A DNA stretch of 21,139 bases from a virus: the IMG/VR virus record IMGVR_UViG_3300042691_003919, positions 1 to 21,139 of that record. One strand, given 5' to 3'. This document shows, piece after piece, positions 4,763-21,139 of this stretch (positions are counted from its first letter, which is position 1; each line of letters begins with the position of its first letter). Below the pieces are notes generated by a model that worked only from the letters and a program-made list of their open reading frames with translations, was not told where the DNA came from and searched no databases. The translations under genes were made by a program, and so were the position numbers.

Positions 4763-7700
4763 ATGGCAGATCGCTATTGGGTTGGGGGTACGGCGAACTG
4801 GGATGCTACTGCCGGTACTAAGTGGTCTTTGACCTCTGGTGGTGCGGGTGGTCAAGCCGTGCCTACGGCTGCGGATGATGTGTTTTTTGATGCTGCAAGT
4901 GGTGCTGTGACGGTTACTCTTCCAACAGCGCAGGCGTTTTGCCGGAATTTAGACTTCACAGGCTTTACTGGGACTTTTGCTGGCGGTGCCACCGCAAACT
5001 TAGCAGGCTCTTTGCTAATTACTTCCGGGGTCACGTTCACATATTCTGGGCAGATTAGCTTTACCGCCACTAGCGGCGCGTACACCATTACAACTTCTGG
5101 CAAGACCATCTTTACGATACGCATCGGAAGTTCAGGAACGTCTACCGCAAGCTGGACGCTGCAAGATGCACTGACATCATCAGGTTCGATAACAGTTGAC
5201 AGCGGAACCTTCACCACCAATAACTTCAACGTCACTGCCACAGCCCTGTCGTCCAGCAACAGCAACACACGGACGATCAATCTGGGTAGCAGTACGGTTA
5301 CTGTTAGCGCAACATCTCCGTGGAATTTTGGTGGAAACACCAATTTAACTTTTAACGCTGGCACATCAACTATTGTCTGTTCATCTGCAACAACCGTTTC
5401 ATTTGTTGGCGGCGCATCAGGGGGTACTGGCGTTACGTTTTATAACCTGTCGTTCACCGGAACATCTGCGGGGACAAAAACCTTTCAAGGTGTTAATACA
5501 TTTAACAACATTACGGTATCTGGACCAGCTTCTGCCGGTGTTGTTCAAGTTGCGTTTGGTGACAATCAAACCATCAACGGCACTTTGTCCACCACCGGTA
5601 CAGCAGGAAACCGCCGAGTATGGTTTCGTGGAGTCACATACGGCATTGCCCAAACCCTCACCATCAACAGCGCACCGAGTCTGACCGACGCAGACTTTCG
5701 GGACATCTACGTCATTGGCACTGCTGCGCCGATTTCTGGTACGCGGATCGGGGATCTCCGGGGATGCCGAGGGATCACGTTCGACACACCAAAGACGGTG
5801 TATTGGAACCTTGCTGGCGCACAGAACTGGTCTGCAAACGGATGGTCGGATACATCTACCGGAACGCCCAACACAAACTTCTTCCCGCTTGCCCAAGACA
5901 CAGCAACGTTTACGAACGCTGGTTCAGTGACGGGCACGATAACGATGGACTCTGCTGTGCCTTATACAGGCACGGTGGATATGTCCGGTCGCACAAGTGC
6001 GATGACGTTGAGTATTGGTGCTGCGCAAACCATATACGGCAACTGGAAAAACGGTTCTGGTACCACGTTAACCACTGTAAACACCTTGACGTTCTCAGGC
6101 CGTAACACCCAGACCATTACTAGCGCAGGAAAGACATTTAGCGGCGGCATCACCATCGACTCCTACGGCGGCTCCGTCGAGCTTGCTGATGCGCTGAACA
6201 TTGGGTTCCCTCTCAGCTGTCTGGCGGCCAACGGCACGTTCGACACCAAGAACTTCAACGTCACGGCTGGCTCTTTGTCTTCCAGCAACTCCAACGTCAG
6301 GACGATTACGTTGGGGTCTAGTACAGTGACCTTGAGCGGATCGTCGGCGTTCACATTTGCAGATTCTACAAATCTAACATTTAATGCCGGAACATCTACA
6401 ATATCTTGTTCTAGTAATGGTACAAACGCTGACGGTGGTGGAATAACATTTTACAACGTGTCTTTTACTAGCACGGGTACAAATACAAGAACAATCCAAG
6501 GCGCAAACACATTCAATGATCTAAGCGTTACGGCTCCTGCATCTGCGGGTCTGGCTACTCTTGCATTTTCAGCAAACCAAACCATCACAGGCACACTGAC
6601 CTGCGCTGGAGCCACAGCAGTACGCCGCATCTTCGTCCGCTCTAGCACCCTCGGCACCACCAGCACTCTCACTGTAGGCACCCTATCCGCAACGGACTGC
6701 GACTTCCGCGACATCACCATCGCAGGTACAGCAGCAGGATCATCTCCCACCCGTGCGGGTGACTGTGGTGGCAACACAGGCATCACGTTCCCTGCGGCCA
6801 AGACTGTTTATTGGAACTTGGCTGGCAATCAGGACTGGAATGCTACCGCTTGGGCACCGGGGTCTGGTGGAACGCCTGACATCAACAACTTCCCGTTGGC
6901 ACAAGATACTGCAGTGTTTGATAACACGGGCGCTGCCGGTACTATTACAATCCGTAACGATTGGAACATCGGTACAGTTAATGCGTCTGCCAGAACAACG
7001 GCAATGAGTTTAGTTTCTAATTTAACCACTTTTCCGTCTATACACGGCAATTGGCTATCGGGAACTGGGCTTGCGATATCCACTACGGGTAATAGTTCCT
7101 TAGTTTTTAGCGGTAGTGGGACGCAAACAATTACGTCCAATGGCGTAGCGTTCGGTCTTAACATATCAATTAACGCACCTAGAGGTATAGTAGAGTTAGC
7201 AGACGCCTTGTCATTTGGAGTTTTTGATTATCAACTTTCCGTTGAAAGAGGTACGTTTGATGCTGTTTCGTATTCTGTAAGTATTAGCACTTTTAATACA
7301 AATTTTACTACCTCAAGAACCTTAAAAATGGGTTCTGGTACATGGACCTGTTCTGGCACCGGTAGTATTTGGAGTGCTACAACCACAACAAACTTAGCCT
7401 TCTACAAAGGCACGGCCAACATCGTTCTATCAAATACCAGCGCACTCGCTCGTACCTTTGCCGGTGGCGGTCTTTCCTACAACAAACTCACCATCGGCGG
7501 TGCAGCGGGCACCTCCACTCTCACCATCACCGGGAACAACCAATTTAGTGAACTTGCCAGCACTAAGGTCGTAGCCCACACCATCGCTCTAGGCTCAACT
7601 TCTACTTGGTTTGGCAAGTGGACCGTCACCGGCACTGTGGGCAACGTTGTTACGCTGACGGGTAGTTCAACAAGTCATCAAATTGTTGGTGCATGTACTT

Positions 7701-11814: not shown

Positions 11815-13389
11815 ATGCCATATTCAACGAACCTCAAGATCGATTTGATGGATAACGGGACAAACTCCAATTCTTGGGGAACCGTTACAAACGCCAATCT
11901 CGGCACTGCGCTTGAGCAAGCGATTGTGGGCAGGGCGGACATTTCGATGTCCAGCACCACGGTCACTTTGAGTTATACGGATACGAACGCGGCGCAGGAC
12001 GCCCGTGCGATCTACCTGAACTTGAGCGGTTCGCCGGGTGGCGCGGCCACATTGGTGGTCCCTGCGATCCAAAAGCCTTACATCGTCAAAAACGGCTCGG
12101 ATGCCCAGGTCACGATCAAAGTCTCCGGCCAGACCGGTGTGATCGTCCCGGTCGGTAAGACGGTGTTAGTTTATAACAATGGCACGGATGTCGTAACCTC
12201 GGTGGATCACATCCCGTCCTTGACGCTTGCGTCGGCGTTGCCGGTGGCGAGCGGAGGCACGGGGATCACGGCGTTTGGCACTGGTGTGGCCACGGCGCTT
12301 GGCGTCAACGTCGGCTCTGCAGGCGCGGTGGTGGTCAACGGCGGAGCGCTTGGAACGCCCTCGTCCGGTACGCTGACCAGTTGCACAGGGCTGCCTGTCA
12401 GTACAGGAATCGCAGGACTTGGCACGGATGTGGCCACCGCTCTTGCTGTCAACGTCGGCTCTGCAGGCGCGGTGGTGGTCAACGGCGGTGCTCTTGGAAC
12501 ACCGAGTTCAGGAACACTGACTAGCTGTACTGGTCTGCCGGTTAGCACTGGCATAAGCGGTCTTGGCACTGGTGTGGCTACTTTCCTAGCCACACCAACA
12601 TCGGCTAACTTGGCAGCAGCGGTGACTGGTGAAACAGGTACTGGTGCGTTGGTGTTTGCAACCAGCCCGACTCTTGTCACGCCTACACTCGGTGCAGCGA
12701 TTGCTACGTCAATTAACGGATTGGTGCTGAATCGCGGGACTGGATCTGGCGTTTCCCAAAGCGTGGCAATCGGTGGGACGGCGTTGAGTAGTGCTACTTC
12801 GGGGACGGAGAACACCGCTGCCGGTTATGGCGCGCTCAGATCGGTAACCAGCGGACAGCAAAATGTGGCTGTTGGGCAAGAAGCTGGGAAAGATTTAACA
12901 ACTGGCAGTAAAAACATATACATTGGACGGGCTGCAAATGCAAGCAGTGGCTCTGTTGAAAAAGAATATGTGTTCTGCTATGACAAAATTGGTAAGGGCG
13001 GAGACACTGCGTTTATCGGCGGCAGCAACGGCGTATACAACGAAGGCAATACTACCGCATGGCAGACTACATCCGACCAGCGTTTGAAGAAAAACATTGT
13101 TGATAACGCCGATGGTCTAGCTAAGATCGAGGCTATCCGGGTCAGGAACTTTGAGTACCGCAAATCTGAAGAAGTTGTAGGACTGCCAGCTAACGCTGCG
13201 ATAGACAAAACGGGTGTGCAGCTCGGCGTAATCGCGCAGGAAATGCTGCCCGAGTGTGTTTCGGAAACTTCGCTTGGGGTCTTGTCTGTCAATACGGACC
13301 CGCTTGTGTGGTACTTGGTAAATGCGGTAAAAGAACTATCGGCACAGGTTAAAAATCTTCAAGAAAAATTGAATCAACAAAACTTTTGA
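11815..13389 (+). CDS. Tail fibre with C-terminal Peptidase_S74 intramolecular chaperone
   Basis: 524 residues; AAGGA at 11804-11808 is six bases upstream. The N-terminus (about 1-110; DNGTNSNSWGTVTNANLGTA, AIYLNLSG) is a recurrent fibre attachment module. Residues 155-250 hold two copies of a 48-residue repeat (VNVGSAGAVVVNGGALGTPS, TLTSCTGLPVSTGI), typical of prophage fibres. Residues ~330-400 include AAGYGALRSVTSGQQNVAVG. The S74 domain begins at S420 in TTSDQRLKKNI: S420 and K425 have the Ser/Lys spacing of the known self-cleaving dyad in endosialidase chaperones. It continues FEYRKSEE and VIAQEMLPECV, then a C-terminal coiled coil (LVNAVKELSAQVKNLQEKL). By family knowledge the ~105-residue domain trimerises the fibre and is cut off before S420. 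The protein probably binds the host surface. Confidence 0.92.
   Translation: MPYSTNLKIDLMDNGTNSNSWGTVTNANLGTALEQAIVGRADISMSSTTVTLSYTDTNAAQDARAIYLNLSGSPGGAATLVVPAIQKPYIVKNGSDAQVTIKVSGQTGVIVPVGKTVLVYNNGTDVVTSVDHIPSLTLASALPVASGGTGITAFGTGVATALGVNVGSAGAVVVNGGALGTPSSGTLTSCTGLPVSTGIAGLGTDVATALAVNVGSAGAVVVNGGALGTPSSGTLTSCTGLPVSTGISGLGTGVATFLATPTSANLAAAVTGETGTGALVFATSPTLVTPTLGAAIATSINGLVLNRGTGSGVSQSVAIGGTALSSATSGTENTAAGYGALRSVTSGQQNVAVGQEAGKDLTTGSKNIYIGRAANASSGSVEKEYVFCYDKIGKGGDTAFIGGSNGVYNEGNTTAWQTTSDQRLKKNIVDNADGLAKIEAIRVRNFEYRKSEEVVGLPANAAIDKTGVQLGVIAQEMLPECVSETSLGVLSVNTDPLVWYLVNAVKELSAQVKNLQEKLNQQNF
12277..12564 (+). repeat. Two 144-bp in-frame repeats in the S74 fibre
   Basis: Units 12277-12420 and 12421-12564 encode 48-residue copies differing at only a few residues (GTGVATALGV versus GTDVATALAV, IAGL versus ISGL). 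A partial third start (GTGVATFLA) follows at 12565. The DNA differs mainly at silent sites in the second half. Confidence 0.85.
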
Positions 13390-13401
13390 AGGATGCTTTG
13401 T

Positions 13402-13536
13402 ATGATTACTCATATTGAAGCAAGTTGTGGGGTTAGCTACTCATCTCTTATAACTCCCCTGCTTAAAGCGGTTCAGCAGCTAAAGGAAGAGCTAGTAGAA
13501 GCAAAGGCCCGTATCGCAGCACTTGAACAAAAGTAA
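13402..13536 (+). CDS. 44-residue ORF resembling an S74 C-terminal helix
   Basis: ATG at 13402 with GAAGGA (13388-13393) eight bases upstream; stop TAA at 13534-13536. The product begins MITHIEASCGVSYSSLITPL and continues as a charged coiled coil ending ARIAALEQK. Its SLITPLLKAVQQLKEELVEA lines up with PLVWYLVNAVKELSAQVKNL at the end of the fibre just upstream, so it looks like a second copy of the last S74 helix. It is also in the same frame as the fibre, separated only by TGA at 13387-13389 and four codons. It may be a remnant of a replaced fibre end, a separate small subunit, or a read-through extension. The Shine-Dalgarno site favours independent translation. Confidence 0.65.
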   Translation: MITHIEASCGVSYSSLITPLLKAVQQLKEELVEAKARIAALEQK

Positions 13537-13538
13537 CC

Positions 13539-13724
13539 ATGAAAAAACAAGCCAAATCCAAGGTCAATGCCGCAGGCAACTACACAAAGCCAAGCATGCG
13601 TAAGGCATTGTTCTCCAAAATCAAAGCGGGCACCAAGGGCGGTGATCCGGGGGAATGGTCCGCGAGAAAAGCACAGCTTTTGGCGTCTGAGTACAAGAAA
13701 AAGGGTGGGGGCTATACTTCATGA
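13539..13724 (+). CDS. Small basic phage protein (KVNAAGNYTKP family)
   Basis: 61 residues, very basic. KVNAAGNYTKPSMRKALF, KIKAGTKGG and GEWSARKAQLLASEYKKKGG are a pattern I recognise from many phage and marine-virus genomes, always as a short protein of unknown function. It starts two bases after the preceding stop, has only a weak ribosome site, and overlaps the next gene by ATGA. The KGG end echoes the small proteins at 476-921. Confidence 0.85.
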   Translation: MKKQAKSKVNAAGNYTKPSMRKALFSKIKAGTKGGDPGEWSARKAQLLASEYKKKGGGYTS

Positions 13725-13951
13725 AAGCCCCTCAGCAGTCGCTCAAAGACTGGACGTCGCAAAAGTGGCGCACGTCAGACGGGAAACCCAGTAAGGGCAA
13801 AAAGCGATATCTGCCTGATGCTGCGTGGGGCGCTCTTTCACCGGGGGAAAAAGCAGCTACTAACCGCGCCAAGGCCAAAGGCAATGCCCAAGGGAAACAG
13901 TTTGTGAAGCAGCCTAAATCAGTCGCAAAAAAAACCGCAAGCTACAGGTGA
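13721..13951 (+). CDS. Small basic phage protein, DUF5872-like
   Basis: 76 residues, strongly Lys-rich. SLKDWTSQKWRTSDGKPS, KRYLPDAAWGALSPGEKAAT and RAKAKGNAQGKQFV are the conserved pieces of a short family that I remember as DUF5872. It is found in phages and giant viruses; its function is unknown. The end QPKSVAKKTASYR is basic. It could bind nucleic acid (inference from charge only). It overlaps the upstream small gene by ATGA and ends three bases before the nozzle start. Confidence 0.8.
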   Translation: MKAPQQSLKDWTSQKWRTSDGKPSKGKKRYLPDAAWGALSPGEKAATNRAKAKGNAQGKQFVKQPKSVAKKTASYR

Positions 13952-13954
13952 TCC

Positions 13955-15814
13955 ATGCCGCTTCTTCGTCTATTTCTCAAGCCTGGGATTGACAAGCAAA
14001 ACACCGAATACGGTGCTGAAGGCGGCTGGACGAATGGGGACTATGTTCGGTTTCGTTACGGGCTGCCAGAAAAGATTGGTGGGTGGACGGACTTTGGCGC
14101 AATCCCGGTGAACCTTCTGGGAATGGCTACACAGGTATTTACTTGGACGAATTTGGACGGAGCTCCTTTTGCTGCGGTTGGAACCAACAAAAAAGTTTAT
14201 GCCTTTTATGGTGGAACATGGGCGGATATCACTCCAATCCGGCGCACAGTAACGGGCGGGGCAATTACTTTTGATACGACAAGTGGCATCACCACGGTTG
14301 TTGTCAACGACACCTCCCATGGCGCGCTGTTAGGGGACTTCGTCACCTTTTCCAGTGTGACCGGTAATCCTGGTGGGATCACCAATGCGTCGTTGAACAA
14401 TCAGTTTGAGATCACAGAGATTGTGAACTCAAACGAATACAAGATCACTGCTCCGATGCAGGCCAGTAGCACGGCCACTGCCGCAGGCACCGCAAATGCT
14501 GAGTATCAGATCAACACCGGCTCGCCGATCGCCTACTTTGACTTTGGTTGGGGTGTTGGCACATGGGGGACTGGTACGTGGGGCACGCCCCGGACTGGTG
14601 TAGCGGGCGCTCAATTGTCTGCTCAAGTCTGGCAGTTTGATACCTATGGTGAGAATCTCATCCTGCAGTACGTCAATGGCGGCATTTATGAATGGGCCCC
14701 TGTGACAGCCCTGAACACCCGGGCTACAGTGATTGCAGGCGCGCCGACCAAGAGCCGTTTTGCGTTGGTCTCGACCCCTGATCGACATCTGGTGTGTTTT
14801 GGCACTGAGACCACTCTTGCCTCTCCCTCAACACAGGATCCGATGTTCGTGCGGTTTTCCAGTCAGGAAAACATCAATGACTTTACTCCGACTGCAACCA
14901 ACACGGCCGGTGGACAACGGCTCACGGACGGCAATGAGATCCTCAGTGCCATCCGGTCTCGTGGTCAGATCCTGATTTTCACGGACCTGTCCTTGCACGG
15001 CCAGCAGTACCTTGGGCCGCCATTTACTTTTGGCTTTCAGCAGTTGGGGGCCAACTGCGGCATCATGGGCCCGCATGCAGCGGCCGACGTCAATGGTGTG
15101 GCGTATTGGATGGGTAAGGAAGCGTTCTTTGTCTTTGACGGAACGGTGAAAAAGCTCCCAAGCACGGTCCAAGATTATGTGTTCAAGGACATCAATCTTG
15201 TCCAGGCGCAACAGGTCCATGTTGGCGTCAACACCCAGTTCAATGAAGTGACATGGTGGTACTGTTCTGCGGACAGTGACTACATCAACCGCAATGTGAC
15301 GTACAACTATCTGGAAAACGTCTGGTCGATCGGTACTATGGCCCGTACTTCTTGGCGGGATGTCGGGTCCTTCAACAAGCCCTTGGCTGCCGAGTACGAT
15401 GAGGACAGCACGGCCAGCACGATCAGTACGATTTATGGCCTGACATCCGGCCGTACTGTGGTCTATAACCAAGAAGACGGCAAGAATGCAAATGGCGCGG
15501 CGATCGATTCGTTCATCACCTCTGGCTATTTTGACATTGGCGATGGCGACGAGATGTTGTTCATGTCTCGGTTTATCCCGGACTTCAAGAACCAAGTCGG
15601 CAACCTGACGATTCACCTGCTGCTGCGTGCTTTCCCGCAGGCGGCCGCTACGCCCAGTTCCTTGGACCCTTATACGATCGCCCCGAACACGGAAAAGGTG
15701 GACACCCGGGCGCGAGGCAGGCAGATTCAGTTACGGATCCAAAGCAACGAGGTGGACGGAAACTGGCGCTTTGGCACGATGCGCGTGAACATCCAGCCTG
15801 ATGGCCTCAGATGA
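13955..15814 (+). CDS. Tail nozzle / DNA-stabilisation protein (P22 gp10-like)
   Basis: 619 residues with AGGTG (13946-13950) upstream. The start LKPGIDKQNTEYGAEGGW, then YVRFRYGLPEKIGGW (to ~44), is the signature of the P22 gp10-type phage stabilisation/nozzle family. An inserted beta domain lies at ~100-185 (VTGGAITFDTTSGITTVVV, FEITEIVNSNEYKI). The remainder has propeller-like repeats, including FALVSTPDRHLVCFG, VRFSSQENINDFTPT, ILIFTDLSLHGQQYLGPPF and VYNQEDGKNANG, and it ends RQIQLRIQSNEVDGNWRFGT. The length is normal for a nozzle. It would form the distal short tail tube that plugs DNA after packaging. Its stop overlaps the next gene by ATGA. Confidence 0.88.
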   Translation: MPLLRLFLKPGIDKQNTEYGAEGGWTNGDYVRFRYGLPEKIGGWTDFGAIPVNLLGMATQVFTWTNLDGAPFAAVGTNKKVYAFYGGTWADITPIRRTVTGGAITFDTTSGITTVVVNDTSHGALLGDFVTFSSVTGNPGGITNASLNNQFEITEIVNSNEYKITAPMQASSTATAAGTANAEYQINTGSPIAYFDFGWGVGTWGTGTWGTPRTGVAGAQLSAQVWQFDTYGENLILQYVNGGIYEWAPVTALNTRATVIAGAPTKSRFALVSTPDRHLVCFGTETTLASPSTQDPMFVRFSSQENINDFTPTATNTAGGQRLTDGNEILSAIRSRGQILIFTDLSLHGQQYLGPPFTFGFQQLGANCGIMGPHAAADVNGVAYWMGKEAFFVFDGTVKKLPSTVQDYVFKDINLVQAQQVHVGVNTQFNEVTWWYCSADSDYINRNVTYNYLENVWSIGTMARTSWRDVGSFNKPLAAEYDEDSTASTISTIYGLTSGRTVVYNQEDGKNANGAAIDSFITSGYFDIGDGDEMLFMSRFIPDFKNQVGNLTIHLLLRAFPQAAATPSSLDPYTIAPNTEKVDTRARGRQIQLRIQSNEVDGNWRFGTMRVNIQPDGLR

Positions 15815-16524
15815 GTAAGATCAACAATGTCCGTTTGCCTAATGCGGCAACGCAGGGCTACAGCGCCGAGCAATTTGACCAGCTCGTGCGTTCGCTGGAA
15901 CAGGTGATCTTTCAGCTCAACAACAGCTATTCATCCAATGTTGATGTCAACACCGCAGCCGCTTCGGGCTGGGCGTCGGCCGGATCCGGGGCCGGGGGCG
16001 GATTTGCCGGTGGGATTCGAGGGTTTCAGCTTTCAAACGGCATCATATTGCCTCACGCAATGCTGATGTCAGACGTAGACCAGGATCTCACCAGCATCAC
16101 GACGGAAGAACTTATCACTTACAACCTTACTCCCATTGTCAATGGGATACGGGTGGTGGATAACAGCAAGATTTACGTTCCATGTTCTGGGAACTATTTG
16201 GTTACGATCAGGATCCAGGTTTCAAACCGCAGTAATGCGACCCAAGAGTTTGAGATCTGGGCAAAGGACACGGGCGTAAATTACGCAGCTAGTCGGACGC
16301 GGTTTGATATAGCCGCCCGTAAAGACGCCACAACATGGTCTCATGTTGTGCCTACCATCACTGGTATTTTCACCGTAAGCGACCCCTCTGTTAATTACCT
16401 AGAGCTTGCATGGTGGGCCAGTAGTACGGACGTGTTTCTTGAGCACTATGGCACGGATGCGACCCCAACACGGCCCGCTATTTCGTCGGTAATTCTGACC
16501 ATCAATTTCGTATCGGCGATGTGA
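15811..16524 (+). CDS. TNF/C1q-like jelly-roll tail protein
   Basis: 237 residues. The N-terminal ~45 residues (VRLPNAATQGYSAEQFDQLV, LEQVIFQLNNSYSS) form a helix and probable attachment segment. A Gly/Ala/Ser linker (SAGSGAGGGFAGG, ~54-66) follows. Residues ~95-237 (YNLTPIVNGIRVVDNSKIYV, SGNYLVTIRIQVSNRS, VNYLELAWWASSTDVFLE, ISSVILTINFV) have the strand pattern of the TNF/C1q-like jelly roll common in phage receptor-binding or decoration proteins. Position just after the nozzle suggests it sits on the tail tip. Trimerisation is expected for the fold but not shown. Confidence 0.8.
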   Translation: MSKINNVRLPNAATQGYSAEQFDQLVRSLEQVIFQLNNSYSSNVDVNTAAASGWASAGSGAGGGFAGGIRGFQLSNGIILPHAMLMSDVDQDLTSITTEELITYNLTPIVNGIRVVDNSKIYVPCSGNYLVTIRIQVSNRSNATQEFEIWAKDTGVNYAASRTRFDIAARKDATTWSHVVPTITGIFTVSDPSVNYLELAWWASSTDVFLEHYGTDATPTRPAISSVILTINFVSAM

Positions 16525-16525
16525 C

Positions 16526-16858
16526 ATGGCAAACAAGTATCTTCGCAAGTATCTGACGCCGTCGGCGGCAACGGAAACCGCGATCTACACCGTGCCTGCG
16601 GCCAACACTGCAGTGGTGTCGTCGTTGCGTGTGACCAATGAAAACGCCAGTCAAGCTACTCTGACGGCGGCGGTCTACCCTTTAGGCGGGGCCACTCCGT
16701 ACTACATCTTGCGAAGCTATGCACTGCCCACGAACCAGACCATGGATGTGTTTAGTGGGGTGCCGTTGATTTTGGAGGCCACTGACGTGCTCAAGGTCAC
16801 TTCGTCCGTGGCCAGTGTGGACTTTTACTTGTCGTACTTAGAAATGGACAGGAACTAA
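16526..16858 (+). CDS. Small beta-sandwich virion protein
   Basis: 110 residues: MANKYLRKYLTPSAATETAI, TVPAANTAVVSSLRVTNENA, YYILRSYALPTNQTMDVF, LILEATDVLKVTSSVASVDF and YLSYLEMDRN. Alternating hydrophobic strands with the TVPAANTAVVSSL motif are familiar from short phage structural proteins placed after fibre or nozzle genes. No enzyme motif is present. It starts one base after the jelly-roll stop without a strong ribosome site, so coupling is likely. Its TAA overlaps a short downstream ATG (TAATG). Confidence 0.78.
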   Translation: MANKYLRKYLTPSAATETAIYTVPAANTAVVSSLRVTNENASQATLTAAVYPLGGATPYYILRSYALPTNQTMDVFSGVPLILEATDVLKVTSSVASVDFYLSYLEMDRN

Positions 16859-16917
16859 TGAAATCGTCCATAATTTGGGCCATGTTCGCGTCCTTTCCTG
16901 ACGCGCAGCCCCACTGA
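16858..16917 (+). CDS. Possible 19-codon leader ORF
   Basis: MKSSIIWAMFASFPDAQPH, starting at the TAATG overlap with the upstream gene and preceded by AGGA (16850-16853). It is too short to judge by composition. It fills most of the only sizeable gap (16859-16947) in this part of the operon. Its codons run through the 5' arm of the stem at 16891-16942, so its main role could be regulatory. Confidence 0.4.
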   Translation: MKSSIIWAMFASFPDAQPH

Positions 16918-16942
16918 GGGCTTTGGCCAACCAAGGAAAGGA
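16891..16942 (+). promoter_or_regulatory. Potential ribosome-binding-site sequestering RNA stem
   Basis: TCCTTTCCT (16891-16899) is a perfect reverse complement of AGGAAAGGA (16934-16942), which is the Shine-Dalgarno region of the gene starting at 16948. The 34-base loop contains a 5-bp hairpin, AGCCC/GGGCT (16907-16911 with 16918-16922), and the palindrome TTGGCCAA (16923-16930). Pairing would mask the ribosome site; a ribosome on the short ORF at 16858 would melt the 5' arm. Confidence 0.5.
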
Positions 16943-16947
16943 TTGCT

Positions 16948-18909
16948 ATGGAAAATGAAGGAATCATGGCGCTTCCGATGGAAGCTCCCATGTCGCAGCA
17001 AGAGCCGATGGCCGTGTCTAGTGCTGACGCATACGACGCCGCCAAGACCGCGCTCGGGATGACGGATCCGGCCGCGTTGGAGATGATGAAAGAGTCACTC
17101 CGCGAGGATCTTGCTGATGTCGATCTGACGCCCCGTGAAATCGATCAGCTGATCGATGTCATGGAGTATTTGACCAGGAACCCTGGCGATTACGAACGCG
17201 TCATCCAAGACCTGATCAGTCGCGACATGATGGACCCGGGGGACTTCCCGGACCAGTACGATCCCACCTTCATTGGTGCGGCGCTGGCCGTGCTGAATGA
17301 ACTCAAGATGGGCCGTGTCGAGGGGGCCATGGCCCCTATGCAGGCAGGCCCGGGTATGGCTCCGATGGCCATGGCGCAAGGTGGCTTGGCCGACATGGCG
17401 CAGTATCTTGCCTCGCGGGGCAGGAACGGCGACACGATGCTCGCGCACATCACGCCGGACGAAGCGCGGATGCTGCAGGCGCAGGGCGGCTCGGGGACCA
17501 TCAACCCTGAAACGGGCTTGCCGGAGTACTTCAAGAAGTTCTTCAAGAAGGTCGGCAAAGCCGTCAAAAAGGCTTTGCAGTCGCCGATTGGTAGGATCAT
17601 TGGCACGATTGCGCTGGCCACGGTCCTCGGTCCGGCAGGCATTGGCCTTGTGGCGAGCACCGCGAGCGCGGCCGCATTGGCAGGGGGCGCGACAGCGCTT
17701 GCAGCCGGAGGTAATCTCAAACAGGCGCTTGTGTCGGCCGCGCTGGGTTATGTTGGTGGCGGTGGCACGATTGGCGGCGTGAGCCCATTGCAGTCGGTCG
17801 GAAGTGTGCTGCCTGGGGCAGCAGGAACGGCGCTCAACACTGGCCTGACGACAGCTGCTTTGGGCACTGGAGCCGGTCTGGTGATGGGCATGAAGCCCTC
17901 AGAAGCGCTGAAGATGGGTGCGACTTCGGGACTGATTTCAGGTGGTCTTCAGGCCATGGGACCGCCCGCGCCTGGAGCGCAGGCACCTACGCCGGGAGCA
18001 GACGCCGCGGCTTCTGGAGCAGGACAAGGAATTGGTCAGCTCGGTACGGCAGCCAATATGGCTGGAGAGATGGGCGCTGGTGCCTACTCTACGACGGGCG
18101 AATTGATGGCAGGACCTGCGCCGTCTCCTTCGGTTGCTGGGGAGATGGGCACGACGGCTTCAACGCCTTATTCGTCCAGTGGCCAACTGCTTCCCCCTGG
18201 GTCGAACCCGGCGCAACCAGGCTTCTTCGGCCGCATGGCCCAAGGCGCGGGAGACTTGTACAACCAGTACCTGTCCCCGAGCCGTCCGGGACTGGCGGCG
18301 GATGCGGGCATTTTGCAGAAGTACGGTCCGTTGGCCTTGGCCGGTACTGCGGTAGCGGCTGCGGGCGGGGCGTTCAAGTCTCAGCCTGGGGACAGCAGTC
18401 CGCTGTACGATGCCGAGGACTACATTCGACAGTCGCAAAAGCGGGCGGAAGACGTCAACAAGTTCTTTGAGAACCGTGGGTTCTATCCAAACCCGTCGAC
18501 CTATCAGCCACGGCTTCAGCCGACGCCAGCCGTGCCCAATTTCCCCGTTAACCCGATCTACATGGCACCGACCGTGCCGACGCCGGGGATCACAAACAGT
18601 CCAGGTGGCGTGTTGCAGCCGTATAACGTGGCGGGGTTGTATCAAGTGCCGCAGATCTATCCGCCCATGCCCGTGTATCGAGCCAAGGGCGGTCCGATGC
18701 AAACGACTCAGTTTCCAAGGAAAACGGGCCCGATCAACGGACCGGGGACCGGGACTTCGGATTCGATCCCCGCCATGCTCTCGGACGGCGAGTTTGTGTT
18801 CACCGCCAAGGCGGTGCGCAATGCTGGCAATGGTAGCCGCCGCAAGGGTGCGGCGCGCATGTACAAAATGATGAAGATGCTCGAAGGCGGGCCGGTTAGG
18901 AGCGCTTAA
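16948..18909 (+). CDS. Internal virion / DNA-ejection-like protein
   Basis: 653 residues with the strong site AAGGAAAGGA (16933-16942). Residues 30-125 form acidic helices (LREDLADVDLTPREIDQLID). Residues 145-193 contain GLADMAQYLASRGRNGDTML, AHITPDEARMLQAQGG and GTINPETGLPEY. Residues 195-210 are a cationic amphipathic helix (FKKFFKKVGKAVKKAL). This is followed by a Gly/Ala hydrophobic stretch (~212-330; IGRIIGTIALATVLGP, ASAAALAGGATALAAGG). The middle is Pro/Gly/Ala-rich. Near the end, RAKGGPM is followed by GTSDSIPAMLSDGEFVFTAK and GSRRKGAARMYKMMK, a C-terminal block that I know from virion proteins of pelagiphage/cyanophage-type podoviruses. The role in membrane penetration during DNA ejection is inferred from the hydrophobic segment and position. 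Confidence 0.75.
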   Translation: MENEGIMALPMEAPMSQQEPMAVSSADAYDAAKTALGMTDPAALEMMKESLREDLADVDLTPREIDQLIDVMEYLTRNPGDYERVIQDLISRDMMDPGDFPDQYDPTFIGAALAVLNELKMGRVEGAMAPMQAGPGMAPMAMAQGGLADMAQYLASRGRNGDTMLAHITPDEARMLQAQGGSGTINPETGLPEYFKKFFKKVGKAVKKALQSPIGRIIGTIALATVLGPAGIGLVASTASAAALAGGATALAAGGNLKQALVSAALGYVGGGGTIGGVSPLQSVGSVLPGAAGTALNTGLTTAALGTGAGLVMGMKPSEALKMGATSGLISGGLQAMGPPAPGAQAPTPGADAAASGAGQGIGQLGTAANMAGEMGAGAYSTTGELMAGPAPSPSVAGEMGTTASTPYSSSGQLLPPGSNPAQPGFFGRMAQGAGDLYNQYLSPSRPGLAADAGILQKYGPLALAGTAVAAAGGAFKSQPGDSSPLYDAEDYIRQSQKRAEDVNKFFENRGFYPNPSTYQPRLQPTPAVPNFPVNPIYMAPTVPTPGITNSPGGVLQPYNVAGLYQVPQIYPPMPVYRAKGGPMQTTQFPRKTGPINGPGTGTSDSIPAMLSDGEFVFTAKAVRNAGNGSRRKGAARMYKMMKMLEGGPVRSA

Positions 18910-20136
18910 ATGGCAGAGACAATCACCACCCAGCGGATGCTTTCGGAAAGCCCGGAAGTTGAGGCGTACAAGCTAAACCTGCTCAAAAGGGCCTCTGAAC
19001 TAGCGACTTCGCCTGCGGAAGGCCCCAGCTTTGCCGAGCAGCTTCCTGGTTATCAGGTTGCGGGCTTTACAGACCCGCAGATGAGAGCGATTGAGGCTGC
19101 GCGGACCACGGGCATTGGTTCGTATATGCCTTACGTCGAAGGCGCGAATGTCGCCTTGGGCGGTGCATATCGAACTGCGGGCGAAGCGGCTGACATCCTG
19201 CGTGGCGCGGACACCAGGGGACAGTTCACTGACGCGCAGGCCGCGCTGCAACAGGCGGGTGGCGCTGCCAGAGGCATGACAGGAGGCATTGGCCAGCTAC
19301 AGCAAGCGATCACTCAGCTTGGTGGCGCGGCACAGGGCTACGACCCGAGCCGCGCGCAAGCCTTCATGAACCCCTATCAGCAGCAAGTGATCGATGTTGC
19401 AATGCAGCAGATCCAGCGGCAGGGGGACATTGCAAAGCAAGGAGCGGCTGCGCAGGCGGTTCGATCCGGGGCCTTTGGCAGCACTCGGGAAGGGGTGCAG
19501 CGGGCCGAGATGGAACGGGGAATTCTGGAGCAGAAGGCCAATACGATGGCCAATCTGATGGCGCAGGGTTACAGCCAAGCGCAGGCCAATTCGATGGCTT
19601 CTTTTGAACAGCAGCAACAGCGTCAGTTGGCGGGTGGGCAGGCGCAAGTTGCAGCAGGTCAAACCTTGGCCAACATCTACGGCCAGCAGGCCGGGCAGAT
19701 GCAGAATATCGGCATGGGCATTGGCCAGTTGGCAGGGCAGCAGTTTGGGATTGGTCAGCAGCAGGCCATGGGCCTCGGCTCGTTGGCCGCGCAACTGGGC
19801 CAACTGGGCATCCAACAGGGTGCGATGGGCCAGACGGCGCAGGCGATGGGACAAAGCGACATCAATTTCCTGTACAACATTGGCCAAACGCAGCAGGCGC
19901 TCAACCAGCAGCAGTTGGACGCGCAGCGTGCGACGGAGACCCAACGACTGTATGCCCCGTATCAGCAGGCGGCATTCTTGTCTGACATCTACAGGGGTGC
20001 GCCGTCCACGTCGATGGCAACCACTGCGGCAAGTCAGCCAAGCGCAAGTCCGTTCCAACAAGCGGCGGGAATCGGGATCGGTGCATTGACTGCGGCCGCC
20101 GGAGCCAAGAGAGTTGGTGGACTGTTTGGTGGTTGA
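18910..20136 (+). CDS. Gln/Ala-rich helical internal virion protein
   Basis: 408 residues, with TAGGAG at 18897-18902 seven bases upstream; the start directly follows the previous stop. After residue ~90 it is Gln/Ala/Gly-rich and almost entirely helical. Conserved pieces include YDPSRAQAFMNPYQQQVIDV, IQRQGDIAKQGAAAQAVRSG, AFGSTREGVQRAEMERGI and AQGYSQAQANSMASFEQQQQ, known to me from uncharacterised podovirus virion proteins. The C-terminus ends with a Gly/Ala hydrophobic patch (GIGIGALTAAAGAKRVGGLF). Probably part of the same ejection complex as its neighbours. No enzymatic domain (for example transglycosylase) is visible. Confidence 0.75.
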   Translation: MAETITTQRMLSESPEVEAYKLNLLKRASELATSPAEGPSFAEQLPGYQVAGFTDPQMRAIEAARTTGIGSYMPYVEGANVALGGAYRTAGEAADILRGADTRGQFTDAQAALQQAGGAARGMTGGIGQLQQAITQLGGAAQGYDPSRAQAFMNPYQQQVIDVAMQQIQRQGDIAKQGAAAQAVRSGAFGSTREGVQRAEMERGILEQKANTMANLMAQGYSQAQANSMASFEQQQQRQLAGGQAQVAAGQTLANIYGQQAGQMQNIGMGIGQLAGQQFGIGQQQAMGLGSLAAQLGQLGIQQGAMGQTAQAMGQSDINFLYNIGQTQQALNQQQLDAQRATETQRLYAPYQQAAFLSDIYRGAPSTSMATTAASQPSASPFQQAAGIGIGALTAAAGAKRVGGLFGG

Positions 20137-20141
20137 CAGAT

Positions 20142-20146
20142 AAGGA
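20142..20146 (+). promoter_or_regulatory. Ribosome binding site deciding the start at 20153
   Basis: AAGGA lies three bases before the ATG at 20150 and six before the in-frame ATG at 20153. The second spacing is the normal one, so 20153 is preferred. Confidence 0.6.
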
Positions 20147-20152
20147 TCAATG

Positions 20153-21139
20153 ATGAGCATTTTCAGCAGAGCCCGTAGCGCCCGTTCAACACTGAATCAA
20201 CTGAATCAGGCGCAGCCTCCTCAGCCGGGTGTGGCCCAAAGGTTATTTACCAAGGTGCAGCAAGCGCAGCAGCAGCTCGGGCAACAAAATCCGCAGCCCG
20301 CGCCGATGGTTCCGCCCCCGGGAATGCCCCAAGTATCGCCGTCTCAAACGAGCGCATTGACTCAACTTTTGTCACAGGCACGAATGCAGTCCCCTGATAT
20401 TGGGGCATTGCCTCAAGGGATGTCAGGTCGTGATCCAAGAGCCATTGCTGCCAATCCACAAGGCTTTAAGCAGTACATGGCTGAGGCGCGTCAGCAAGAA
20501 GCTCAGATGCCGGGTTCCCCGATGTTGGGCAACACGTCAAGCGGCACCTTTGGTCCGCAAATGTCGCCCCTTGCGCAATATCAGCTTGATGCGCAACGGG
20601 GCATGTCTTCTGGTGGACTTGGGATGCAGCAACAAATCAGTCCTTTTGCGCAGGCCGGATATGAGGCGCAAATGGCCGGTCCGAACCCATACGCCCAGGG
20701 CCTTGGTTCGTCGTCCAGTCCTTTTGCGCAATATCAGCTTGATGCGCAACGGGGCATGTCTTCTGGCGGACTGGGGATGCAGCAACAAAACATACCTTCT
20801 GGCATGCTTGGCGGAGGGCTCGGTGCGTTGCCGCTGGATATGATGTATCGAGGAGGTCCTTCGGATCCCGCACAGCAGGCAGCAGTACAGCAGTTCAATA
20901 TGAACCGTGAAAACCAGATGTCGCAACTGGCGGCAACGGCGCTGCAGAACATGCCCGGTAGGGGTTTGCAGGGAGCCTTCGGCAGTCCGCAGCAAAGCTC
21001 CTTCGGCACTCCGCAGCAAAGCTCCTTCGGCGGACAACAAAGCACTCCCGGAATGGGATTGCAGGGAGTCTTCGGCAGTCCGCAGCAAAGTTCCTTCGGC
21101 AGTCCGCAGCAAAGTTCCTTCGGCAGTCCGCAGCAAAGT
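20153..21139 (+). CDS. Gln/Pro/Met-rich low-complexity virion protein (3' end outside window)
   Basis: 329 codons open to the right edge, without a stop in the window. It begins MSIFSRARSARSTLNQLNQA, then is Gln/Pro/Gly/Met/Ser-rich (VQQAQQQLGQQNPQPAPMVP). An internal duplication (LAQYQLDAQRGMSSGGLGMQ and FAQYQLDAQRGMSSGGLGMQ) and terminal FGSPQQSS repeats follow. It reads as a disordered or helical protein and resembles the Gln-rich gene before it, so it is probably a third internal or ejected virion component. No domain that I can name. Long minus-strand ORFs here are by-products of the repeats. Confidence 0.75.
   Translation, partial: MSIFSRARSARSTLNQLNQAQPPQPGVAQRLFTKVQQAQQQLGQQNPQPAPMVPPPGMPQVSPSQTSALTQLLSQARMQSPDIGALPQGMSGRDPRAIAANPQGFKQYMAEARQQEAQMPGSPMLGNTSSGTFGPQMSPLAQYQLDAQRGMSSGGLGMQQQISPFAQAGYEAQMAGPNPYAQGLGSSSSPFAQYQLDAQRGMSSGGLGMQQQNIPSGMLGGGLGALPLDMMYRGGPSDPAQQAAVQQFNMNRENQMSQLAATALQNMPGRGLQGAFGSPQQSSFGTPQQSSFGGQQSTPGMGLQGVFGSPQQSSFGSPQQSSFGSPQQS
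20571..20789 (+). repeat. Direct repeat, 66 bp, 153 bp apart
   Basis: 20571-20636 and 20724-20789 differ at only two bases by eye. Each encodes AQYQLDAQRGMSSGGLGMQQQ. The 153-bp offset keeps the reading frame. Confidence 0.85.
20978..21139 (+). repeat. 24-bp tandem repeats encoding FGSPQQSS, running off the window
   Basis: Units start at 20978, 21002 and 21026 (the last degenerate, FGGQQSTP). After a 21-base spacer (21050-21070), units follow at 21071, 21095 and 21119. The last three are identical as far as seen, and the third is cut after 21 bases by the window end. A larger ~93-bp unit (GLQGxFGSPQQSSFG...) is also visible, starting at 20966 and 21059. Confidence 0.9.

Follow-up and report, generated by a model that had tools for sequence, protein, structure and literature searches.

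A conserved RNA leader with its own promoter may limit translation of a tape-measure-like gene in environmental phages

The window, by which we mean the whole stretch of DNA that was analysed, comes from IMG/VR, where it is a virus record 21139 bases long. All of the features described here lie on its plus strand. The gene p110 (16526..16858) encodes a 110-aa protein with weak matches to PHROGs of unknown function, and is followed by a gene for a 653-aa tape-measure-like or ejection protein (16948..18909), the start of which, at 16948, agrees with its placement in an earlier note made from the sequence. The 653-aa protein has no Pfam match, its likeness to tape-measure proteins is found mainly at the C-terminal end, and its homologue in the named genome DSL-LC04 (OR003939.1) carries the annotation 'tail tape measure protein'. 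According to passages of PMC10611076, DSL-LC04 is a metagenome assembly for which the family Dishuiviridae has been proposed. At the DNA level, megablast against named phages gave no match, and the sole real match among them, a distant one, was OR003939.1 (five more rows at an E of 4 were disregarded). Two features that the earlier note had reported between these genes were located as claimed. One is a 19-codon leader ORF (16858..16917), which reads MKSSIIWAMFASFPDAQPH* and overlaps the p110 stop as TAATG. The other is an exact 9-base complementarity between TCCTTTCCT (16891-16899) and the Shine-Dalgarno (SD) region AGGAAAGGA (16934-16942) of the 653-aa gene. A wobble pair, G16890-U16943, lengthens this complement, and we refer to the resulting helix as P3, formed by a 5' strand or anti-SD, GTCCTTTCCT (16890..16899), and a 3' strand, AGGAAAGGAT (16934..16943).

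Within the window, this complementarity is exceptional. Nine complementary bases were reached by only 1 of 2000 base shuffles, while the other 18 of the 19 window start sites examined have no more than five such bases in the corresponding zone, and the SD region of the 653-aa gene has the lowest accessibility (0.16) of all 19. When 16850-16970 was folded, close to a check proposed in the earlier note, the stem appeared in the MFE structure and again in the centroid. The fold energy of the same fragment is ordinary (-35.7 kcal/mol, z of -1.13, with 30 of 200 shuffles as good); whole-fragment energy was accordingly dropped as evidence for the stem.

Comparison with relatives places P3 in a larger element, which reads 5' to 3' as TRGACA, 18 bp, nATAAT, the 5' strand of a helix P0, the hairpins P1 and P2, the 3' strand of P0, the SD and AUG. 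Of 101 loci fetched by protein only, 100 cover the region and all 100 contain the element; by pattern, the -10, core and SD were all matched in 99 of the 101, whereas the contig of L024 includes the core and SD but begins past the promoter, and that of L023 begins inside the gene. A divergent p110 query yielded 30 loci, three of which end too early, and the element was present in 26 of the 27 covering loci, 22 times as a variant (four with the strict core, 19 of the L307 type, in which P3 is imperfect, three of the L327 type and one, L330, with none). A third protein query yielded 28 loci, with the element in 26 of the 27 that cover the region (L342 lacks coverage and L346 the element). The element, which is shared by a large group of uncultured aquatic phages, occurs in more than 200 environmental loci at one fixed place and as one copy per record in 9/9 long records; in the loci examined it precedes this one virion gene only. 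Of 79 loci from other phage groups, reached through the neighbouring 'stabilization' protein that they share, none had the element, among them three (L226, L231 and L238) with a GIMALP-type gene, and the SD/anti-SD pair was found in none of five other named records (L220-L224). Twenty-six core-pattern matches in bacterial genomes, with model scores of at most 25.2 bits and mostly comprising P1 only, were treated as chance. Positions 16820-16990 had no match to any of the 4227 families of Rfam release 15 at E up to 10, the window and six loci had no match at the gathering threshold, and the literature searched gave no recognised description of this RNA. For the counts below we used 139 distinct elements, 63 of them from a core-pattern scan (among the matches listed), with loci lacking a p110 stop or a downstream start in range left out. 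It should be noted that all 139 matched one of three core patterns, which were written after the variants had been viewed; core invariance in this set is therefore biased, and it is the sets fetched by protein that give a fair picture. The 139 elements also share ancestry, such that their counts are not independent.

The element begins with a sigma-70-like promoter, consisting of a -35 hexamer TGGACA (16845..16850) inside the end of p110 and a -10 hexamer CATAAT (16869..16874). Taking +1 as the seventh base after the -10 puts the expected start near 16881. This is the best sigma-70-like match (10 of 12) within 12000-21139, and the pattern occurs once per record in 9/9 long phage records. Of the 139 distinct elements, 133 have TRGACA and the -10 separated by exactly 18 bp, and 136 have GATAAT or CATAAT as the -10. 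Among the elements listed, the distance from the p110 stop to the core varies, being mainly 30-31 or 48-49 bases; since the 18-bp spacing is fixed regardless, the -35 is not kept for coding alone.

Three helices follow. P0 pairs GGCCA (16878..16882), which lies across the expected transcription start, with TGGCC (16924..16928). P1 has 6 bp and a 7-nt loop, with arms CGCGTC (16887..16892; 99.8% of cells paired) and GACGCG (16900..16905) around the loop CTTTCCT (16893..16899), which together with 16890-16892 makes the anti-SD. P2 pairs AGCCC (16907..16911) with GGGCT (16918..16922). In a MAFFT alignment of the 54 distinct protein-fetched elements, with L023 and L024 dropped, 91.0% of cells were paired in P0/P1/P2, versus 85.7 +- 0.5 when shuffled and at most 47.1% in slid versions of the structure, and two-sided changes numbered 47 versus 16.1 when shuffled. 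In a second alignment of 97 elements, two-sided changes were seen in 12 of 15 pairs, although this count leans to the structure, as the elements were fitted to the model and the loci chosen by hand. Both-sided changes affect all four modelled pairs of P2 and, by the tool's count, 3/6 pairs of P1. Of the three helices, P0 is the weakest, with pairing in 76.7% of cells in the 54 elements; its strands pair better with their own partners (4.42) than with swapped ones (3.91 +- 0.08; best of 300 swaps, 4.15), in a comparison uncorrected for relatedness that left out L024 and L211. Judged by this comparative evidence, the fold is well supported, with compensatory changes backing P0, P1 and P2. Among elements with at least four P0 pairs, 108 of 128 local transcripts would retain three or fewer of them, and P0 thus belongs mainly to the read-through RNA.

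The masking helix behaves differently. GGAAAGG of the SD is present in 138 of the 139 distinct elements, and P3 is nearly invariant across relatives, its own changes being only C-G to U-G; hence its pairs yield no real covariation. The earlier note had proposed to look for covariation of the two arms; the compensatory changes that were found lie in the surrounding element. Because the 9-base complement is kept in relatives, it is not a product of chance, and comparison indicates that the SD/anti-SD stem is real and conserved. Alignment of relatives thus shows the complementarity along with the promoter, P0, P1 and P2. In a divergent group (L327, L328 and L329), P1 has a 5-nt loop, the SD reads GGGACAGG and both P3 arms are altered together; here P3 is absent and P1 is kept, and the SD is predicted to be masked by another pairing.

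P1 and P3 share 16890-16892 and the loop, and as full helices they are mutually exclusive, although a shorter pseudoknot between the loop and the SD could form alongside P1. We compared the two states by nested folding, with energies that do not include pseudoknots, ribosomes or RNA polymerase speed. P3 was not computable in 4 of the 139 elements; in the other 135, the P3 state was stabler than P1 with a free SD in 134 of the local transcripts and in 126 of the read-through ones. The mean P3 probability over the 139 local transcripts was 0.87, and the mean unpaired SD was 0.05 in local versus 0.13 in read-through transcripts. In folds of the growing window transcript, P1 and P2 are present until ~60 nt and P3 appears from 66 nt, and the median barrier of the P1-to-P3 path is 11.3 kcal/mol (130 elements with at least seven P3 pairs). 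P3 is thus predicted to prevail over P1, with a barrier between them, and it is from the growing-transcript switch and the barriers together that we infer a folding delay.

From these results, we give about an even chance to the proposal that the element is a cis-acting RNA that, with its own sigma-70-like promoter, limits translation of the tape-measure-like gene. At its 5' end, the mRNA would first fold into the hairpins P1 and P2, leaving the SD free. As the SD emerges, the P1 loop (CUUUCC) would begin to pair with it, P1 would be displaced, and a 9-10 bp helix, P3, would mask the SD. Translation would occur mainly from young transcripts, or be low throughout, and a low output would suit a low-copy virion protein. 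The P1-to-P3 delay would set this output. Promoter choice would also matter, because the P0 5' strand is only partly present in promoter-proximal RNA. How tailed phages keep their tape-measure and ejection proteins at a low copy number is a testable question.

Autogenous control is known for T4 RegA and gp32 and for RNA-phage coat protein, and the element might likewise be an operator, with P1/P2 bound by a protein of the phage or the host that changes the balance between P1 and P3. The P1 stem letters CGCG/CGCG are near-invariant even though P2 pairs swap freely, which hints, at the level of sequence, at a protein or ligand holding P1 more constant than pairing requires; the single copy of the element in each of nine long records fits as well. 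However, P1 is close to invariant only in the close set, and in divergent clades its letters do change with compensation, CGCGUC/GACGCG becoming CGCCUC/GAGGUG, CGCCUU/AAGGUG or CGUGCC/GGCACG with pairing kept. We regard such an operator as doubtful.

Somewhat less probable again is the earlier note's model of the gate, in which ribosomes leaving p110 would restart at the overlapping leader start, traverse P1 and open P3 on the read-through mRNA. Its predicted SD mask is kept across relatives, as described above, whereas the leader ORF did not hold up as a conserved part of the device. Of the 139 distinct elements, 73 have an overlap start and a frame that stays open across P1, an enrichment of frame 0 over the other two frames (7 and 3). 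In 56 of these 73, the ORF stops within -5 to +8 of the downstream AUG. In 45 (e.g. L035 and L056), the frame runs on past the SD as far as the downstream start, and 34 of the 73 stop 8 bases after the A of that AUG. Since the elements share ancestry, however, these counts are not independent, and the intact ORF is absent from 66 elements, among them the close relatives L002, L011, L017 and L019, which keep everything else. A coding signature was also rejected, as codon-position variability in the leader has no third-position excess. With the ORF absent in close relatives and no codon signature, it is not required by the element. Moreover, the leader AUG (16858) would be missing from the local transcript, which is expected to start downstream of it, near 16881. 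Leader coupling on the read-through mRNA is possible in part of the family.

An RNA thermometer, or a simple fixed attenuator of translation without switching, would account for the stable predicted SD mask but leaves the compensated upkeep of the P1 3' arm unexplained, and we consider it improbable. Least probable is a ligand riboswitch built on a P0/P1/P2 three-way junction and a pseudoknot between the P1 loop and the SD, for although there are three covarying helices, a conserved core and a P1 loop of 7 nt that complements the SD, there is no corresponding Rfam family, the element precedes this virion gene alone in the loci examined, and promoter-proximal RNA holds only part of the P0 5' strand.

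The proposed delayed masking of the SD has parallels among known leaders. The MS2 A gene encodes a low-copy virion protein, and its SD is masked by an upstream complement. In its leader, a transient structure permits translation of this maturation gene before the final fold is reached, according to a passage in PMC6733600, citing van Meerten 2001. The present element is alike both in the SD mask by an upstream complement and in the transient structure before the final fold, since by calculation it has a metastable hairpin that contains the anti-SD and is excluded by the final fold. It differs from MS2 in belonging to a double-stranded DNA phage, in having its own promoter and in its sequence and helices, and the timing here is a putative one. 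As far as that passage describes the MS2 A-gene leader, the element would work most like it, without passing as a member. In the leaders of T4 gene e, soc, 49 and I-TevI, the SD lies in a helix and a promoter lies close upstream, as summarised in part of PMC3014915. They resemble the element, to the extent of that summary, in that a helix strand (here P0) lies across the promoter start and makes the long and short transcripts differ. However, the late transcript of gene e is described there as lacking the masking strand, whereas here the anti-SD is downstream of the expected start, and the local transcript would keep it and lose only part of P0. As in other SD-sequestering 5' leaders, the SD pairs with its complement in the predicted fold and helices backed by compensatory changes (P0, P1 and P2) are present. 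In kind, the element resembles the cis-regulatory leader RNA families of Rfam release 15, with no covariance-model match among them, and we regard it as a new family within a known kind of RNA. A fuller reading is tentative and, in our estimation, unlikely as a whole: that this new family is a two-state leader, widespread in aquatic phages, in which promoter choice (with P0 across the start) and the P1-to-P3 delay together time and limit synthesis of the tape-measure or ejection protein. A defined RNA of ~80 nt that is absent from Rfam and lends itself to clear mutants offers a handle on whether delayed folding controls a virion gene in a DNA phage.

The marine Pelagibacter phage HTVC103P shares the C-terminal motif of the 653-aa protein and lacks the RNA element. 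In its record (L220, 4930-5060), a TTGACG/TATAAT-like site, read by eye, precedes its gene. Going by HTVC103P, a private promoter here may predate the RNA element. In another named record, MW202825.1 (L224), a relative of residues 147-194 of the 653-aa protein is encoded in an unannotated gap (4948-5944). Lastly, L004, L005, L039, L040, L075 and related loci have the P1 loop CUUUUCC, all seven bases of which can pair with GGAAAGG, with one G-U.
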